Made by a program: the position numbers and the translations under genes. This document shows, in pieces, positions 47,110-62,416 of a stretch of 64,000 nucleotides of DNA (position 1 is the stretch's first letter; each line of letters starts with the position of its first letter). The stretch comes from Sandaracinus amylolyticus (GTDB taxonomy: Bacteria; Myxococcota_A; Polyangia; Polyangiales; Sandaracinaceae): assembly GCF_000737325.1 (NCBI RefSeq), contig NZ_CP011125.1, positions 1,426,001 through 1,490,000 of the forward strand, given 5' to 3'. The notes beneath the pieces were generated by a model. It saw nothing but the letters and a program-made list of their open reading frames with translations, did not search any database and had not been told where the DNA came from.

Positions 47110-48735
47110 TCAGCGCGCGGGGGGCAACGTGCGGCGCGCGAGGAGGTCGCGGCCGAAGAGCGCGATCGCGAGCGCGCGCGTGACGCGCGAGAACGTCGTC
47201 CAGAGCGCGCCCATGACGAGGTTCGCGCGATGGAGCGCGAGCACGGTCGTGGTGGCGACGACGCCGCACGCGACGAACAGCCGGAACAGCCACCACAGCG
47301 GGAACGACGCGAGCTCGGGGAATCGATGGTGGAGGCGCCAGAGGCGGCCGAACGCGGGCAGCAGCGAGCGGAAGTCGAAGCCGAGCCGATACGCGAGCGC
47401 GTACACGTCGAGCGACATGAACGGCACCGCGAGGATGCCGCGATGGATCATCGGATTCGCGATCCAGCGCAGCGCGCGGCGCGGGCTCGAGGTGCGCGCG
47501 AGGTGGCGGCTCACGATCCAGTTGAGCGCGAGGTGCGCGTGCTCGTCGCGCGAGATGCGTTGCTCGAGCGCGTCGAGGAGCGCGCCCTTCACCTCGGGGT
47601 GGTGGCGCAGGAAGGGGATCGTGCCGGCATCGAGGAACGTCTCGAACACCGGAGTCGAGAGCGCGACGAGCGCGACGTCTGCGTCGCTGCGCGGATCGAG
47701 CCGATCGAACTGCGAGAGCACGAGCGCGTTGCCGAGCCCGGGCGGCAGGATGCGGCCGCCGTGCGCGGCGATCACGCGACGGAGCGCTTCGGCGTGCCGG
47801 CGCTCCTCGTCGGCGAAGTGACCGTAGAGCGCGCGCAGATCGTCGTCGGCGCTGCCGTCGCGCAGCAGCTCGAAGTTGAGGCGCGCGATCTCCTCGATGT
47901 AGACGACCTCGTTGAGCAGGCGCTCCATGAGCGGCGAGATCGGGCGCCGCGGGCGCTCGGGCCACGCGATCTCGTCGAGCGACCACTGGTGCGCTTCGAC
48001 GTTGCGGCGCAGCTTCGCGACCGCGTCGCGATCGGCGTCGTCGAGGAGCGCGAGCGGGCGCCCGTAGCGCGCCCAGAACGGTGCGCGACGCTCGTGGAGC
48101 AAGCGACGCGCGCTCCACCACGCGAGCGCGCCGACGAGCGCGCCGCTCGGCACGTCGACGACGTAGTGCTGCTTGACGGTGAGCGTCGCGAGCGCGACGA
48201 GCGTGGCCCACGTCACGCAGAGCACGACGAGCGCGCGTCGCGCTCCGGCGCGCGCGAACGGGAACGAGGTGCCGGAGAGCGCCATCAGCGCGGCGAGCGC
48301 GACGTGCAGCGAGGGGACGCAGTTCGCGGCGGTGTCGGCGTCGCGCAGATCCGCGAGCTCGAGCGCGGTGAGGCTTCCGTCGTCGGGCGTGGGGTAGAGC
48401 GCGCGCGGATAGGTGGTCGGGAAGACCATGAAGATCACGGCGCACGTGATCGACGCGATCGCGATCGAGGCCCAGAGCCGGCGCGCCTCGAGGCGGCTCG
48501 GGACGATCGCCCACGCGAGGAAGACCGCCCACGTCGCGGTGCCGTAGATCCACACGGTCCACGGCCAGTACGGGATCGCGAGATCGAGCGCGGTGAGCGG
48601 CAGCAGCCGATACGGCGCGAGCGTGCCGATCTTCGAGGCGCCGTAGCAGACGAGGATCGTCAGCATCGACACGCCGAAGCCTGCGAGCCGCTCGCCGAGC
48701 TCGACGAGCGACGAGCCGAAGCGGTCGCGATCCAT
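47110..48735 (-). CDS. PAP2-type phosphatase fused to a ferritin-like diiron domain
   Basis: 541 residues. Residues about 1-225 are a six-helix PAP2/inositolphosphotransferase-like membrane domain with the motif pair CVPSLHVAL and KQHYVVDVPSGAL, whose His residues form the phosphatase site. Residues about 265-440 are a helical bundle with EEIARLNFE, DEERRHAEALRR, FETFLDAG and RDEHAHLALN, giving two ExxH motifs as in AurF-like diiron oxygenases. A C-terminal hydrophobic stretch follows. Possibly dephosphorylates a lipid and oxidises the same molecule. TATCGT is 9 nt before ATG. Confidence 0.88.
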   Translation of the reverse strand: MDRDRFGSSLVELGERLAGFGVSMLTILVCYGASKIGTLAPYRLLPLTALDLAIPYWPWTVWIYGTATWAVFLAWAIVPSRLEARRLWASIAIASITCAVIFMVFPTTYPRALYPTPDDGSLTALELADLRDADTAANCVPSLHVALAALMALSGTSFPFARAGARRALVVLCVTWATLVALATLTVKQHYVVDVPSGALVGALAWWSARRLLHERRAPFWARYGRPLALLDDADRDAVAKLRRNVEAHQWSLDEIAWPERPRRPISPLMERLLNEVVYIEEIARLNFELLRDGSADDDLRALYGHFADEERRHAEALRRVIAAHGGRILPPGLGNALVLSQFDRLDPRSDADVALVALSTPVFETFLDAGTIPFLRHHPEVKGALLDALEQRISRDEHAHLALNWIVSRHLARTSSPRRALRWIANPMIHRGILAVPFMSLDVYALAYRLGFDFRSLLPAFGRLWRLHHRFPELASFPLWWLFRLFVACGVVATTTVLALHRANLVMGALWTTFSRVTRALAIALFGRDLLARRTLPPAR

Positions 48736-49992: not shown

Positions 49993-51248
49993 CAGGCCAC
50001 CACCGTCGTGATCGGGGTGCGGCCCTGGGTGCCGAACGTGTCGAGCTCCAGGCCGAGCACCCGCGCGAGCGTGAGCAGCACGTCGTGGTAGTGCGCGCCG
50101 CCGAGATCGAGGAGGCGCCCGGTGCGCAGCACGTTCGTTCCGCCCGCGACGACGAGCGGCACCGAGCTGCGCGCGTGACCGAACGGCTGGAGGCCGAGCT
50201 CGTTCGTCCAGAACACGATCGTGTGATCGAGCACCGTGCCGTCGCCCTCGGGGATCGCATCGAGCCGCGCGCAGAGATGCGCGACCATCTCGCCGTGCCA
50301 GCGGTTGATCGCGAGCAGCTTGTCGTACGCGTTCACCGCGTTGCCGTGGGCGATCTCGTGGAAGTCCTCGTCGACTCCGGCCCACGCGTAGCGCCGGATG
50401 CTCCCCGACGGGCCGACCATCAGCGTCGCGACGCGCGTGAGATCGCACGCGAACGCGGCCGCGATCGTGTCGGCGTGGTGGCGCACCGCGTCGTTCATCG
50501 CGAACGTGCCGCCGCTCGGCGCGCCCGGCCCCGGCGGGAGCTCGCACGCGTCGACCATCACGGGCTCGGCGAGGCGACGCTCCTGCTCGCGCAGCGCGGT
50601 GAGGTGCGCGTCGAGCACGCGTCGCTCCGCCGGCGAGAGCGACGCCTCGAGCGCGGTGAACTCGCCGATCACGCCGTCGAGCACGCTGCGTCGCTGGGCG
50701 CGCAGGCGCTCGAGCACCGCGGGATCTCCGTTCGCGACGAGGAAGAGACGATCGAACGCGTGGCGCGGATCGACGACGGGTGGCACCGGGAGCGCGCCGG
50801 GCGCGTAGCTGATCACGCTCGCGGCGTTGCTGTCGGTGCCTGCCGCGAGCTCGAGCGAGGGGATCGCGGTCTCGCGCGACGAGCGCGCGGCGAGCAGCTG
50901 ATCGAGGCTCGGACCGGTGGGCACGAAGCTGTCGGGCGCGCCGGGCGCGCCGGTGAGGCACTCCGCGTGGCCGTGCTGGTGGTTGTGCGAGCCCTGCGCG
51001 CCGTGCATCACGAGCAGTCGATCGCGGAACGGCGCGAGCGGCGCGAGCACCGGCGAGAGCACGAAGTCGCGCTCGCCGCCCGTCGGGAGCCACTGGTCGG
51101 GGTGCTGCCCGTTGGGCGTGTAGATGCACACGAAGCGCAGCGGCGAGGTCGTCGGCTGCGCGCGCGTGAGCAGGCTCGGTAGCATCGGGAGGCTGATCGC
51201 GGCGCCCGCGACACCCGTGGCGAAGACGCGCCGTCCCATTCTCCTCAT
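49992..51248 (-). CDS. DUF1552 protein (secreted, sulfatase-like context)
   Basis: 418 residues. Starts MRRMGRRVFATGVAGAAISLPML, a Tat-like signal (RR before a hydrophobic stretch). Family parts seen: RFVCIYTPNGQHPDQWLPTG, HGAQGSHNHQHGHAECLTG, SLDQLLAAR, TLMVGPSGSIRRYAW and VFWTNELGLQPFGHARSSVP. DUF1552 proteins accompany DUF1592/1588/1585 proteins in planctomycetes and myxobacteria; their biochemistry is unknown. The ATG overlaps the upstream stop by 1 nt. Confidence 0.93.
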   Translation of the reverse strand: MRRMGRRVFATGVAGAAISLPMLPSLLTRAQPTTSPLRFVCIYTPNGQHPDQWLPTGGERDFVLSPVLAPLAPFRDRLLVMHGAQGSHNHQHGHAECLTGAPGAPDSFVPTGPSLDQLLAARSSRETAIPSLELAAGTDSNAASVISYAPGALPVPPVVDPRHAFDRLFLVANGDPAVLERLRAQRRSVLDGVIGEFTALEASLSPAERRVLDAHLTALREQERRLAEPVMVDACELPPGPGAPSGGTFAMNDAVRHHADTIAAAFACDLTRVATLMVGPSGSIRRYAWAGVDEDFHEIAHGNAVNAYDKLLAINRWHGEMVAHLCARLDAIPEGDGTVLDHTIVFWTNELGLQPFGHARSSVPLVVAGGTNVLRTGRLLDLGGAHYHDVLLTLARVLGLELDTFGTQGRTPITTVVA

Positions 51249-53293
51249 CACTCGCCCTCCGTGATCGGCTCGACGCGGTGCGTGAACGCGTAGGTGCGCG
51301 TCAGCGCGACCATCGCGTCGATCGCGCTCGTGCGCAGCGCCTCGCGCACCGCGGTGATCGTCTCCGCGTCGCCGTCCTCCTCGAGGCGACCGAGCCCGAA
51401 GCGCGTCCACTGTCGCGCGAAGCACTCGGCCGCGAGATCCGACGAGGCGATCGCCTCCGCGAGCGCGCGCGTGCCCTCGATCGACCCGTCCTCGACCGAC
51501 AGCGCGGGCAGCCCGCCGCGCGCGTCGATCGGCCTGCCCGCTTCGGTGGTGCGGTGGCGGCCGATCGCGTCGAAGTCCTCCATCGCGAAGCCGACGGGAT
51601 CGATCAGGCGATGGCAGTACGAGCAGCTCGCGTCGCTCGAGTGGCGCGACCAGCGCTCGCGCGTGGTCGCGGTCGGATCGAACACCGGCGGCACGATGTC
51701 GAGCTCGGCGGGCGGCGGGGGCAGGTGCTGGCACAGCAGGCGCTCGACCACGAACACGCCGCGGTGCACCGGCGACGTCTCGGAGGGCTTCGCGTGCACC
51801 GCCATCAGCGCGGGCAGCGTGAGCATCCCGGCGCGCGTCTCGGGCAGCGCGACCTCGGCGCCGTCGTCGGCGCTCTCGATGCCGTAGATCGCGGCGACCT
51901 GCGCGCTCGGCCACGCGCGCCGCGCGGTGTAGAGCGCGTCGAGCCCCGCGCGCTCCCGGAACACCATCTCGACGACGAAGCGCGACGCGTCCTCGCGCAG
52001 CGCGCGCCGCAGATCGTCGTTCCACTCGGGGAAGAGCGTGGGATCGCGGTTCACCTCGGGCAGTCGATCGAGCCCGAGCCACTGCTCGAAGAAGCGCACC
52101 ACCGTCGCCTCCGCGCACGCGGATCCGAAGAGCCTCGTCGCATGCGACGCGAGCACCTCGGGATCGCGAAGCGCACCGCGCGCGGCATCGGCGCGCAGCA
52201 TCGCGTCGGGCGGCGACTCGCACGCGAGGTACGAGAGGCGCGACGCGAGCTCCCAGTCGTCGAGCGCGTGGTGCCCCTCGCGATCGGGCACCGGCTCGCC
52301 GATCTCGACGAGATAGAGGTGGCGCGGGCTCTCGATGATCGCTTCGACGATCATCCGGAAGCCGTCGCGGAACGATCCCGCTCCGTCGTAGAGCGCGAGC
52401 AGGCGCGCGCGATCCTCGGCGCGCAGCGGGCGGCGCCACGCGAGCGGCGCGATCGTGTCGACGAACGCCTCGGCGCACGCGCGTCGCTCGGTGGTGCGCG
52501 CCGCGCCGGGATCGAGCGGGCCCTCGACGCTCGCGCCGTCGACGTACATCACGCCCGACACGAGACCCGTGACGCGCAGCTCGAGGATCGCGGTGCCGCC
52601 CGGGTGCTCGAGCTCGACGGTCTGCGCCGGCGACGAGGGACCGATCGACCACGTGGTGATCGCGCGCCCGTCGACGCTCACCACGATGTCGACCGCGACC
52701 CGCGGCTCGAGCTCGGCGGTCAAGCGATATCGCCCCGCGCTCGGGAACGCGTGGCTCACCGTGATCACGGCCTCCTCGGGGTACTGCAGGTAGACGCGAC
52801 CGCTCGTCTCGGTGTGCACGGCCCACGTCGGCGAGAGCGCCATGCCGCCGCCGGGGTAGCGCGTGGTCGCGCTCGCGGCAGCGGGCGGGAGGATCTCGGC
52901 GGAGCACGCCGGAACGCGCGACGAGAGCGCGCCGTTCTCGATCATCGACTCCGCGATCGCGCGACCGAGCGCGCCGAACGCCTCGACGTGCACCGCGCTG
53001 GCGGTCTGCGACTGCGCGATGCGATCGAACACGAAGTCGCGCCGATCGGGCGGCACGCGATCGAGCGCGTCGGTCTCCACGCCGAACACGGTCGCGATCG
53101 AGCTGCGCAGCTCGTGCACCGAGAGCCGCCGCACCGACGCGACCGCAGCATGGCCGGGATCCGTCGGATCGGTCGGATGGGTCGGCTGGCGGGGGCCGTG
53201 GCCGCTGGGCCCTGCTGGGCCGTCGAGCAGACCGCCTCGGCACGCGCCGAGCGCGAGCAGGAGCGCGAGGAGCGAGAGAGCACGCGGCGTCAT
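51248..53293 (-). CDS. DUF1587/1592/1588/1585 multidomain lipoprotein
   Basis: 681 residues. Signal SLLALLLALGACRG with lipobox. Order: DUF1587-like VRRLSVHELRSSIATVFGV, a carbohydrate-binding-like beta domain (about 135-260), DUF1592-like body (LASRLSYLACESPPD, RFFEQWLGLDRLPEVNRD), DUF1588 TSPVHRGVFVVERLLCQHLPPPP-type segment, and a C-terminal DUF1585. In between is CSYCHRLIDPVGFAMEDFD, a CxxCH haem-binding signature. Such proteins are thought to act on polymers outside the cell in planctomycetes; this is not established here. It leads the three-gene coupled operon. Confidence 0.93.
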   Translation of the reverse strand: MTPRALSLLALLLALGACRGGLLDGPAGPSGHGPRQPTHPTDPTDPGHAAVASVRRLSVHELRSSIATVFGVETDALDRVPPDRRDFVFDRIAQSQTASAVHVEAFGALGRAIAESMIENGALSSRVPACSAEILPPAAASATTRYPGGGMALSPTWAVHTETSGRVYLQYPEEAVITVSHAFPSAGRYRLTAELEPRVAVDIVVSVDGRAITTWSIGPSSPAQTVELEHPGGTAILELRVTGLVSGVMYVDGASVEGPLDPGAARTTERRACAEAFVDTIAPLAWRRPLRAEDRARLLALYDGAGSFRDGFRMIVEAIIESPRHLYLVEIGEPVPDREGHHALDDWELASRLSYLACESPPDAMLRADAARGALRDPEVLASHATRLFGSACAEATVVRFFEQWLGLDRLPEVNRDPTLFPEWNDDLRRALREDASRFVVEMVFRERAGLDALYTARRAWPSAQVAAIYGIESADDGAEVALPETRAGMLTLPALMAVHAKPSETSPVHRGVFVVERLLCQHLPPPPAELDIVPPVFDPTATTRERWSRHSSDASCSYCHRLIDPVGFAMEDFDAIGRHRTTEAGRPIDARGGLPALSVEDGSIEGTRALAEAIASSDLAAECFARQWTRFGLGRLEEDGDAETITAVREALRTSAIDAMVALTRTYAFTHRVEPITEGE

Positions 53294-60676: not shown

Positions 60677-62416
60677 TCACGCGCGGCGCTGCACGCATCG
60701 CGTGAACAGCGCCTCGAGCAGCGCGGCTCCCTCGCGATCGGGGAGCCGCGCGAGCTCGGCGAGCGCGCGTGACCGATGCGCGCTGGCGCGCTCGCGGCAT
60801 CGCACGTCGACGCCGAGCTCCTCGATGCGCGCGGCCGCCCACGCGACCTCGGCATCGGTGCACGCACGCTCGCCGCGGATCAGCGCCTCGAGCCGCCCGC
60901 GCTCGGTCGGCGGCAGCGCATCGCGCAGGAGCAGCGTCGGCAGCGTCGCCTTCCGCGCGCGCAGATCGGTGCCGCGGCGCTTGCCGAGCTCGGCCTCGTC
61001 ACCGATCGCGTCGAGCAGGTCGTCGACGATCTGGAACGCGAGCCCCGCCTCGCGACCGGCGCGCGTGAGCGCGCGGAGGCTCGCGGGCGTCGCGCGCGCG
61101 GCGAGCCCACCCAGCGCGCACGCGGTCGCGAAGAGGCGCGCGGTCTTCGCCTCGATGACGCGGCAGTACGTCGTGATCGAGATCGCCGGATCGCCGGTGT
61201 GGCGCATCTCCGACCACTCGCCCTCCGCGAGCGCCGCCGCGGTGTCGGCGACGAGCACGCGGCTCTCGCCCGGGAGATCGCGCGCCGCCATCGCGAGGCG
61301 CGCGAGCAGCTGCAGCGCGACCGCCGTCGCGAACGGGACGCTCGTCGCGTGGTGGAGCGTCGGACCTCCGCGGCGCAGCGTCGCCCCGTCGAGCACGTCG
61401 TCGATCACCAGCGACGTCTGGTGCAGCCACTCGACGATCGCGCCCTCTCGAAGGGCCCACTCGGGATCGCCTCCACACGCGCGCGTGCTCGCGAGCACGA
61501 GGAACGGACGCAGTCGCTTGCCGCCCTGGCGCCGGAGGTACTCGATCGCGCCGCGTGTGCGCGGCGGCGCGCCACCGGCGAGCGCCGCGATCGCGTGCTC
61601 GACGTTGCGTCCATGCGCATCGACGAATCGATCGAGCGCGCACCCACCGCGCCGCGCCGGACGTGCGGCCGGCGCGGGCTCGGGCGCGATCGCGGGCAGC
61701 CACGCCTCGGGCTCGCGCGGTGCGGCGGGCCCCGAGGGCAGTCGATCGAGGAGCGCGCGCAGCACGCTCGCGGTGCGATGATCGGTCCAGGGCGCGAGCG
61801 CGGCGTGCGCCTCGCGCCGCGCGTGCGACTCGGCGTCGGACGTGAAGGGAGCGCGCGCGCCGATCGCATCGAGCGCGCCTTCCCAGCGCGCGCGATCGAG
61901 CGTGCCCTGTCGCGCCTCCCACGCGAGCGCGGTCCACGTCGCGAACGCATCGAGCTGCGCGTGCACCTCGTCGCTCACCTCGCCGAGGACGACGCCCGCC
62001 GCGATCGCGGCGCGCAGGAAGATCACCGCCTCGGGCACCGGCGCCTCGGCGCTCCACGCCGGGCTCAGCCGCGCGACGACGCGCTGCGCACGCGCATCGT
62101 CGTCGCGCACGAAGCGCGACCACGCGCGCAGGAAGTCGCGGGTGTCGCGCGCCACCGCGCGATCGAGCGCGTCACGACGCGGGCGATGCACGCGCTGGTT
62201 CCACGCCTCGATCGACGATGCGCACAGCCGCCGCGCGCGCCGCGATCCCGCGCGACCGAACCCGCGCGCGACCTGCAGCGCGAGCGCGCCGCCGAGCCCG
62301 GTGCGCGGCACCGACCACGGGTCGCCCTCGAGCACGTCGCTCACGTCGCGCAGCGCCGCCTGCACCGTCGGCCGCACGGGCGCGAGCAGCGGTTCGTACC
62401 AGGCGCCCCCGTCCAC
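60677..62416 (-). CDS. Polyprenyl synthetase family protein with extra N-terminal half
   Basis: 579 residues, GTG start; the usual length is 300-350. Residues about 265-579 form the trans-prenyltransferase: GGKRLRPFLVL, the first Asp-rich motif VIDDVLDGATLRRG (about 335), GEWSEMRH and the second motif FQIVDDLLDAIGDE (about 462). It condenses isopentenyl diphosphate with an allylic diphosphate. The N-terminal about 265 residues are helical without Asp-rich motifs and might be a decayed duplicate of the same fold. TAACGT lies 8 nt before GTG. Confidence 0.9.
   Translation of the reverse strand: MDGGAWYEPLLAPVRPTVQAALRDVSDVLEGDPWSVPRTGLGGALALQVARGFGRAGSRRARRLCASSIEAWNQRVHRPRRDALDRAVARDTRDFLRAWSRFVRDDDARAQRVVARLSPAWSAEAPVPEAVIFLRAAIAAGVVLGEVSDEVHAQLDAFATWTALAWEARQGTLDRARWEGALDAIGARAPFTSDAESHARREAHAALAPWTDHRTASVLRALLDRLPSGPAAPREPEAWLPAIAPEPAPAARPARRGGCALDRFVDAHGRNVEHAIAALAGGAPPRTRGAIEYLRRQGGKRLRPFLVLASTRACGGDPEWALREGAIVEWLHQTSLVIDDVLDGATLRRGGPTLHHATSVPFATAVALQLLARLAMAARDLPGESRVLVADTAAALAEGEWSEMRHTGDPAISITTYCRVIEAKTARLFATACALGGLAARATPASLRALTRAGREAGLAFQIVDDLLDAIGDEAELGKRRGTDLRARKATLPTLLLRDALPPTERGRLEALIRGERACTDAEVAWAAARIEELGVDVRCRERASAHRSRALAELARLPDREGAALLEALFTRCVQRRA

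Follow-up and report, generated by a model that had tools for sequence, protein, structure and literature searches.

A PAP2_3-diiron fusion protein in Sandaracinus amylolyticus and its partner polyprenyl diphosphate synthase: a candidate polyprenoid-lipid module

The window analysed here, a stretch of 64,000 nucleotides of the Sandaracinus amylolyticus contig NZ_CP011125.1, encodes a protein in which a PAP2_3 domain is fused to a ferritin-like domain of the diiron type, and it also encodes a polyprenyl diphosphate synthase extended by an additional N-terminal domain (Table 1). The fusion, the active-site residues conserved in each half, an R2/ADO-type fold predicted for the diiron half, and the linkage and co-occurrence with the synthase, all of them read from sequence, suggest that the two genes form a polyprenoid-lipid module, in which phosphate would be removed or transferred and a long-chain polyprenyl lipid would undergo O2-dependent oxidation; we give this function a probability of about one half. 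Each half is a known enzyme type; what is new is their combination and the partner gene, not the folds themselves. Titles and abstract openings in the open-licence PMC literature yielded no account of a PAP2-diiron fusion or of its pairing with a polyprenyl synthase.

Table 1. Features of the fusion gene and of the partner synthase gene, in window coordinates
Feature	Position	Strand	Details
PAP2_3-diiron fusion gene	47110..48735	minus	541 aa; ATG at 48735, stop ends 47110; full length in 12 aligned homologues
PAP2_3 domain (PF14378), aa 62-207	48115..48552	minus	Pfam, 41 bits versus cut-off 27
PAP2 motif C2, CVPSLHVALA, aa 139-148, catalytic-type H144	48292..48321	minus	C139, P141, S142 and H144 invariant in 12/12
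PAP2 motif C3, KQHYVVD, aa 188-194	48154..48174	minus	K188, H190 and D194 invariant in 12/12
Ferritin-like/R2-type diiron domain, aa 232-496	47248..48042	minus	AF2 model; structural matches with Z up to 16.4
Putative iron ligand E281	47893..47895	minus	Invariant in 12 fusions and in 7/7 rows with four standalone relatives; neighbour E282 is not
Putative ligands E311 and H314 (ExxH, E311-RR-H314)	47794..47805	minus	Invariant
Putative ligand E365	47641..47643	minus	Invariant
Putative ligands E398 and H401 (ExxH, E398-HA-H401)	47533..47544	minus	Invariant
C-terminal hydrophobic helices, aa 479-526	47158..47301	minus	Model helices 479-503 and 509-526; hydropathy peak 483-501
Partner polyprenyl diphosphate synthase with extra N-terminal domain, 579 aa	60677..62416	minus	PF00348, E 2e-53, aa 288-526
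Distinctive N-terminal synthase domain, roughly aa 1-255	61652..62416	minus	No Pfam match

The fusion gene, its PAP2 half and its distribution

The region singled out in the preliminary description coincides with exactly one minus-strand open reading frame (541 aa), and comparison with the 94%-identical gene of a congener (dN 0.036, dS 0.243) indicated that it is under purifying selection. The combination claimed for this region, phosphatase His motifs and two ExxH motifs in one protein, is real, and the motifs are invariant in 12/12 fusions. Besides PF14378, the protein matched Pfam PAP2 (PF01569), at 32.1 bits against a curated cut-off of 27.2. The C-terminal half matched no Pfam family above cut-off, the Pfam search did not report PF10118 (Metal_hydrol) for the protein, NCBIfam gave nothing for it, and sequence searches of the PDB returned chance-level matches only.

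PAP2 proteins carry a catalytic His in motif C2 and a His-x3-Asp in motif C3. These residues correspond to H144, H190 and D194 in all 12 fusions, the C3 His lying within the wider context TVKQHYVVD. The usual C2 motif of PAP2 proteins is PSGH, at which position the fusions differ in having PSLH or PSQH. In a Foldseek search with the model of the fusion protein nothing reached E 0.001, and the matches to the PAP2 part among the best 50 were an inositol phosphorylceramide (IPC) synthase (9vj4, E 0.007) and Aur1-Kei1 (9ivc, E 0.019). The likeness to the PAP2_3/IPC synthase Aur1 fold therefore comprises the Pfam match, the C2 and C3 His with the Asp, and this weak fold match, whereas the fusion also contains the diiron domain, has a probable hydrophobic hairpin near its C-terminus and is partnered by a prenyl diphosphate synthase. 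Because IPC synthases are transferases, simple dephosphorylation is not assured.

A single-protein scan of the genome contigs returned no relatives; in a search of 56 related genomes, full-length relatives came from the congener (94% identity) and from a second genus in the family (52%). Matches were present in 87 of 377 Myxococcota genomes and the fusion in 12 of them, the S. amylolyticus genome included, three candidates having been scored per genome, with misses possible. Eleven of the 12 gave one long match over both halves, the twelfth (G371) had the halves in different frames, and the remaining matches were confined to a single half, in most cases PAP2. The 12 loci from a scan of named genomes included Plesiocystis pacifica SIR-1, Enhygromyxa salina SWB007 and a number of metagenome-assembled genomes. 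If entries of the two sets with identical contig and ORF lengths are treated as the same genome, the distinct carriers would number 14, namely 13 genomes of our collection (those with G handles) and the locus L039. The two 12-row fusion alignments (A1 and A2) contain largely the same genomes and do not represent 24 independent sequences, and G371/L041 was left out of both owing to its broken frame. The record CAMAWH010000060.1 (L032), titled 'MAG: Klebsiella pneumoniae', also carries the module; it appears to be the same as G215, which is placed in the phylum of S. amylolyticus, and its label is probably wrong.

Ligands, fold and relatives of the diiron half

With the 12-sequence alignment as input, AlphaFold2 gave a model of the fusion protein with a mean pLDDT of 83.4 and a pTM of 0.69; a single-sequence fold of the C-terminal half (pLDDT 47) was not used. 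The successive E, ExxH, E and ExxH elements fall on model helices 268-293, 298-324, 351-378 and 385-415, as in ferritin-like diiron proteins, so that in the model the six putative ligands sit on the four helices of an R2/ADO-type bundle. This spaced E-ExxH-E-ExxH pattern arose in 35 of 20,000 shuffles of the fusion protein and is therefore unusual even in one sequence, and its conservation makes it firm. In a wider alignment (A3) of three fusion domains and four chosen standalone relatives, which are 21-26% identical to the domain of the window, 21 columns were invariant, including E281, E311, H314, E365, E398, H401, D369 and D397; all six ligands are thus kept in the four standalone relatives, and E282 drops out once these are aligned. 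The predicted site is an ordinary set of two His and four carboxylates, and D397, directly before E398, is likely a second-sphere residue. A PAP2 enzyme and a domain of the diiron-oxidase type in one membrane protein, as proposed earlier, are supported.

Structural comparison with VIA-align 2 over about aa 232-500 gave NrdF (Z 16.4), R2lox (16.2), methane monooxygenase hydroxylase (16.1), phenol hydroxylase (15.9) and ADO (15.9), all above about 13, the level about which VIA-align 2 warns for helical bundles; a shared fold shows no function, and absence of a family from this list is no evidence. R2lox, RNR R2 and soluble methane monooxygenase hydroxylase, which share the fold over about aa 232-496 with Z of about 16, share with the fusion the order of their ligands, four carboxylates and two His, but are 8-16% identical to it in the structural alignments; the fusion is in addition membrane-tethered and fused to PAP2. 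ADO (4rc5) aligned over 213 of its 221 residues at 3.3 Å (Z 15.9, 15% identity), and the alignments to ADO and R2lox are consistent with ligands placed around one site in the predicted model. Cyanobacterial ADO, whose substrates are fatty aldehydes, lacks the PAP2 domain of the fusion. The ligand spacing of the fusion, E-x29-ExxH-x50-E-x32-ExxH, compares with E-x27-ExxH-x51-E-x28-ExxH in ADO, as derived from the positions in the available portion of PMC4286721.

The label 'AurF-like' given to this half in the preliminary description found no support when taken in its specific sense. The p-aminobenzoate N-oxygenase AurF (PF11583) and the fusion both have a ferritin-like bundle with an Asp directly before the last ExxH. 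However, Pfam AurF was absent from the matches of the fusion even at E<=10, and the third His ligand of AurF, which lies in an HxxDExxH motif according to the available portion of PMC12101540, is missing: the equivalent position 394 is Ile or Val in 12/12 fusions and in 7/7 rows of the wider alignment. Membership of AurF was rejected on these two grounds. Two standalone relatives reached only E 0.6-0.7 (9.4-9.6 bits versus a cut-off of 29.6) against the same profile.

These standalone relatives belong to a diiron family of about 325 aa (for example, G000:C1:6008250-6009113) that aligns with the fusion over the diiron domain, has the same six ligands in the four aligned rows, and lacks PAP2. 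Relatives of the diiron domain, fusions included, were present in 69 of the 377 Myxococcota genomes (six candidates scored per genome, misses possible). In the two standalone relatives queried, no Pfam family exceeded its cut-off, a match to PF10118 reaching 21.6 bits against 33.2. Eleven loci of the family had no conserved neighbours apart from family members and their shadow frames, 13 loci around relatives of either half (L062-L074) gave no synthase match, and searches of open-licence PMC papers on PF10118/COG3687, on Plesiocystis and on the lipids of Sandaracinus yielded nothing on function.

Linkage to a polyprenyl diphosphate synthase

The open reading frame directly upstream of the fusion was a polyprenyl synthetase on the same strand in eight of the nine cases queried (E 3e-42 to 5e-56 for seven, and 1.5e-39 for a fragment at a contig edge), the ninth, at L041, being a histidine kinase. 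The start codon of the fusion overlaps the synthase stop (ATGA or GTGA) in 7/8 loci, and at L039 the gap is 21 nt; at L033 and L040 the synthase match ends just before or at the fusion start, and L038 begins at a contig edge. Both DDxxD motifs were present in 8/8 upstream synthases scanned. In the window, the orthologous synthase lies on the same strand about 12 kb upstream of the fusion, with similar spacing in the congener; this separation of the two genes in S. amylolyticus and its congener counts against a module. The window synthase is 48% identical to the one adjoining the fusion in L039, scored 181.7 bits against a PF00348 cut-off of 27, and has the motifs DDVLD and DDLLD. By eye, its N-terminal domain may be a degenerate second synthase fold, but a comparison of profiles gave this likeness a probability of just 3.7% across 47 columns. 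The best NCBIfam match, the family 2 encapsulin polyprenyl transferase cargo (NF041169), was rejected as an identity for the synthase at 166.9 bits against a cut-off of 450.

The queried genes between the fusion and the synthase (a PSD/DUF1592-type protein, a sigma-54 activator, a protein kinase and unknowns) look unrelated, and ten neighbour open reading frames of the fusion loci had no family in common. The PSD protein, at 51248-53293 between both module genes, has five domains (DUF1587/1588/1592/1595/1585), a set that we take to be planctomycete-style.

The distribution of the synthase N-terminal domain matches that of the fusion. Among the 377 Myxococcota genomes (seven candidates scored per genome, misses possible), 14 matched this domain at E<=0.001, of which 12 did so at E<=1e-13, and these are exactly the 12 genomes with the fusion; the two weak matches without a fusion were G060 (E 2.9e-4) and G220 (E 6.9e-4). 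The chance of this coincidence is about 7e-23 over genomes and 5e-12 over six genera, values that ignore phylogeny. The fusion of E. salina SWB007 (G371/L041, positions 2300-4500 of L041) carries a frameshift between the two halves, and of the synthase no more than a short N-terminal remnant is left just upstream, its catalytic part being missing; barring an assembly error, the two genes are decaying jointly.

Linkage and co-occurrence with the synthase move the reading from a sphingolipid or sterol pathway, as first suggested, to a dedicated polyprenoid pathway. The protein could instead be an enzyme of sphingolipid or phospholipid type, with PAP2_3 as a headgroup transferase like IPC synthase, the diiron domain as a lipid hydroxylase and the synthase as an operon passenger. 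Membership of the PAP2_3 family and the matches of the PAP2 part to 9vj4 and 9ivc among the best 50 agree with this, but the exact co-occurrence and the start-stop overlap with the synthase are hard to explain by chance neighbourhood, and we consider such an enzyme unlikely. A sterol or hopanoid pathway was also weighed, as a triterpene cyclase domain is present in S. amylolyticus and its congener. It was rejected as a common role, however: the domain was found in only 6/13 carriers, with no match in the other seven, so that sterols or hopanoids would not be the common product, and an enzyme of this kind is highly improbable.

A dedicated polyprenoid supply is consistent with the complement of synthases in the carriers. 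Four or more PPS-type genes were found in each of the 13 carriers searched, and S. amylolyticus and G247 have another PPS with ATLLHDDV.D, the classical long-chain motif; the module synthase therefore looks extra. Small residues five positions before DDxxD, which mark long-chain prenyl synthases, are also found in the module synthases, suggesting that their product would be long-chain. A long polyprenyl tail would also suit quinone modification, in which the module synthase would contribute to a polyprenyl quinone and the diiron domain would act on it in the manner of COQ7, a membrane-bound diiron hydroxylase with the same general ligand set. Yet this would leave the PAP2 domain unexplained, and no prenyl-aryl transferase was found among the neighbour open reading frames queried; we regard a quinone substrate as improbable.

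Topology, proposed function and meaning

Under the positive-inside rule for membrane proteins, the distribution of charge in the fusions suggests that the two active sites face opposite sides of the membrane. Acidic residues predominate in the long loop from motif C1 to motif C2 (mean K+R 2.8, D+E 5.5, with helix limits taken from the model) and in the TM1-TM2 loop (0.4 versus 1.5), whereas basic residues predominate on the opposite side (TM4-TM5, 1.9 versus 0.1; after TM6, 3.8 versus 2.5) and the TM2-TM3 loop is neutral (1.0 versus 0.9). This bias would place the PAP2 site in the periplasm and the diiron domain on the cytosolic side. The two hydrophobic helices near the C-terminus are followed by a basic tail and therefore probably form a membrane hairpin.

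On the module model that we favour, the synthase would supply long-chain all-trans polyprenyl diphosphate reserved for this pathway, and the fusion would be an inner-membrane protein. On the periplasmic side, the active site of its PAP2_3 domain would remove or transfer phosphate at the (di)phosphate end, and the cytosolic ferritin-like domain, with a membrane anchor at either end and presumably occupied by iron, would use O2 on the same lipid or on its dephosphorylated product, by hydroxylation, desaturation or C-C cleavage. The architecture is compatible with the two-step lipid modification proposed in the preliminary description, dephosphorylation plus oxidation; the AurF-like assignment and a sterol pathway as the shared role found no support.

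To our knowledge, the known bacterial glycan carriers are cis-prenyl products. A PAP2 site on the periplasmic side would also suit the recycling or supply of polyprenyl carriers, with PAP2 making polyprenyl phosphate for glycan assembly and the diiron domain serving as a regulatory or O2-sensing add-on, and in E. coli, PAP2 proteins are undecaprenyl-diphosphate phosphatases (available portion of PMC4641660). Nevertheless, the module synthase is of the PF00348 type, unlike the makers of cis-prenyl glycan carriers, and no glycan genes were found among the neighbour open reading frames queried; a role in carrier recycling is thus quite unlikely.

One precedent in gene content is the gromomycin cluster, in which, according to the available portion of its description (PMC12105684), a polyprenyl synthase (groD), a PAP2 protein (groG) and Rieske oxygenases occur in one pathway. 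As in the module, polyprenyl synthase, PAP2 protein and oxygenases are paired; unlike the module, the gromomycin genes are separate, Rieske and P450 enzymes take the place of the diiron domain, and a prenyltransferase and a cyclase are also needed. That portion of the account lists the PAP2 gene and proposes no specific step for it.

The main weakness of the module model is the predicted placement of the two active sites on opposite membrane faces, so that one lipid would need to flip or span the bilayer. In a bilayer-spanning version, the phosphate end of a long chain would be bound by the PAP2 half on the periplasmic side, and the omega end would extend to the cytosolic diiron site and be oxidized there. 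The module could then yield an oxidized, possibly bilayer-spanning polyprenoid membrane lipid of an undescribed class, a bolaform polyprenol in a bacterium, an outcome that we regard as a long shot.

Few myxobacteria carry the fusion, and its travelling with the synthase suggests that the pair makes an unusual oxidized isoprenoid lipid. As the two-gene unit is present in the cultured P. pacifica SIR-1, the question of the product is directly testable. The fusion also offers a lead on a diiron family that is widespread in myxobacteria and of unknown function.
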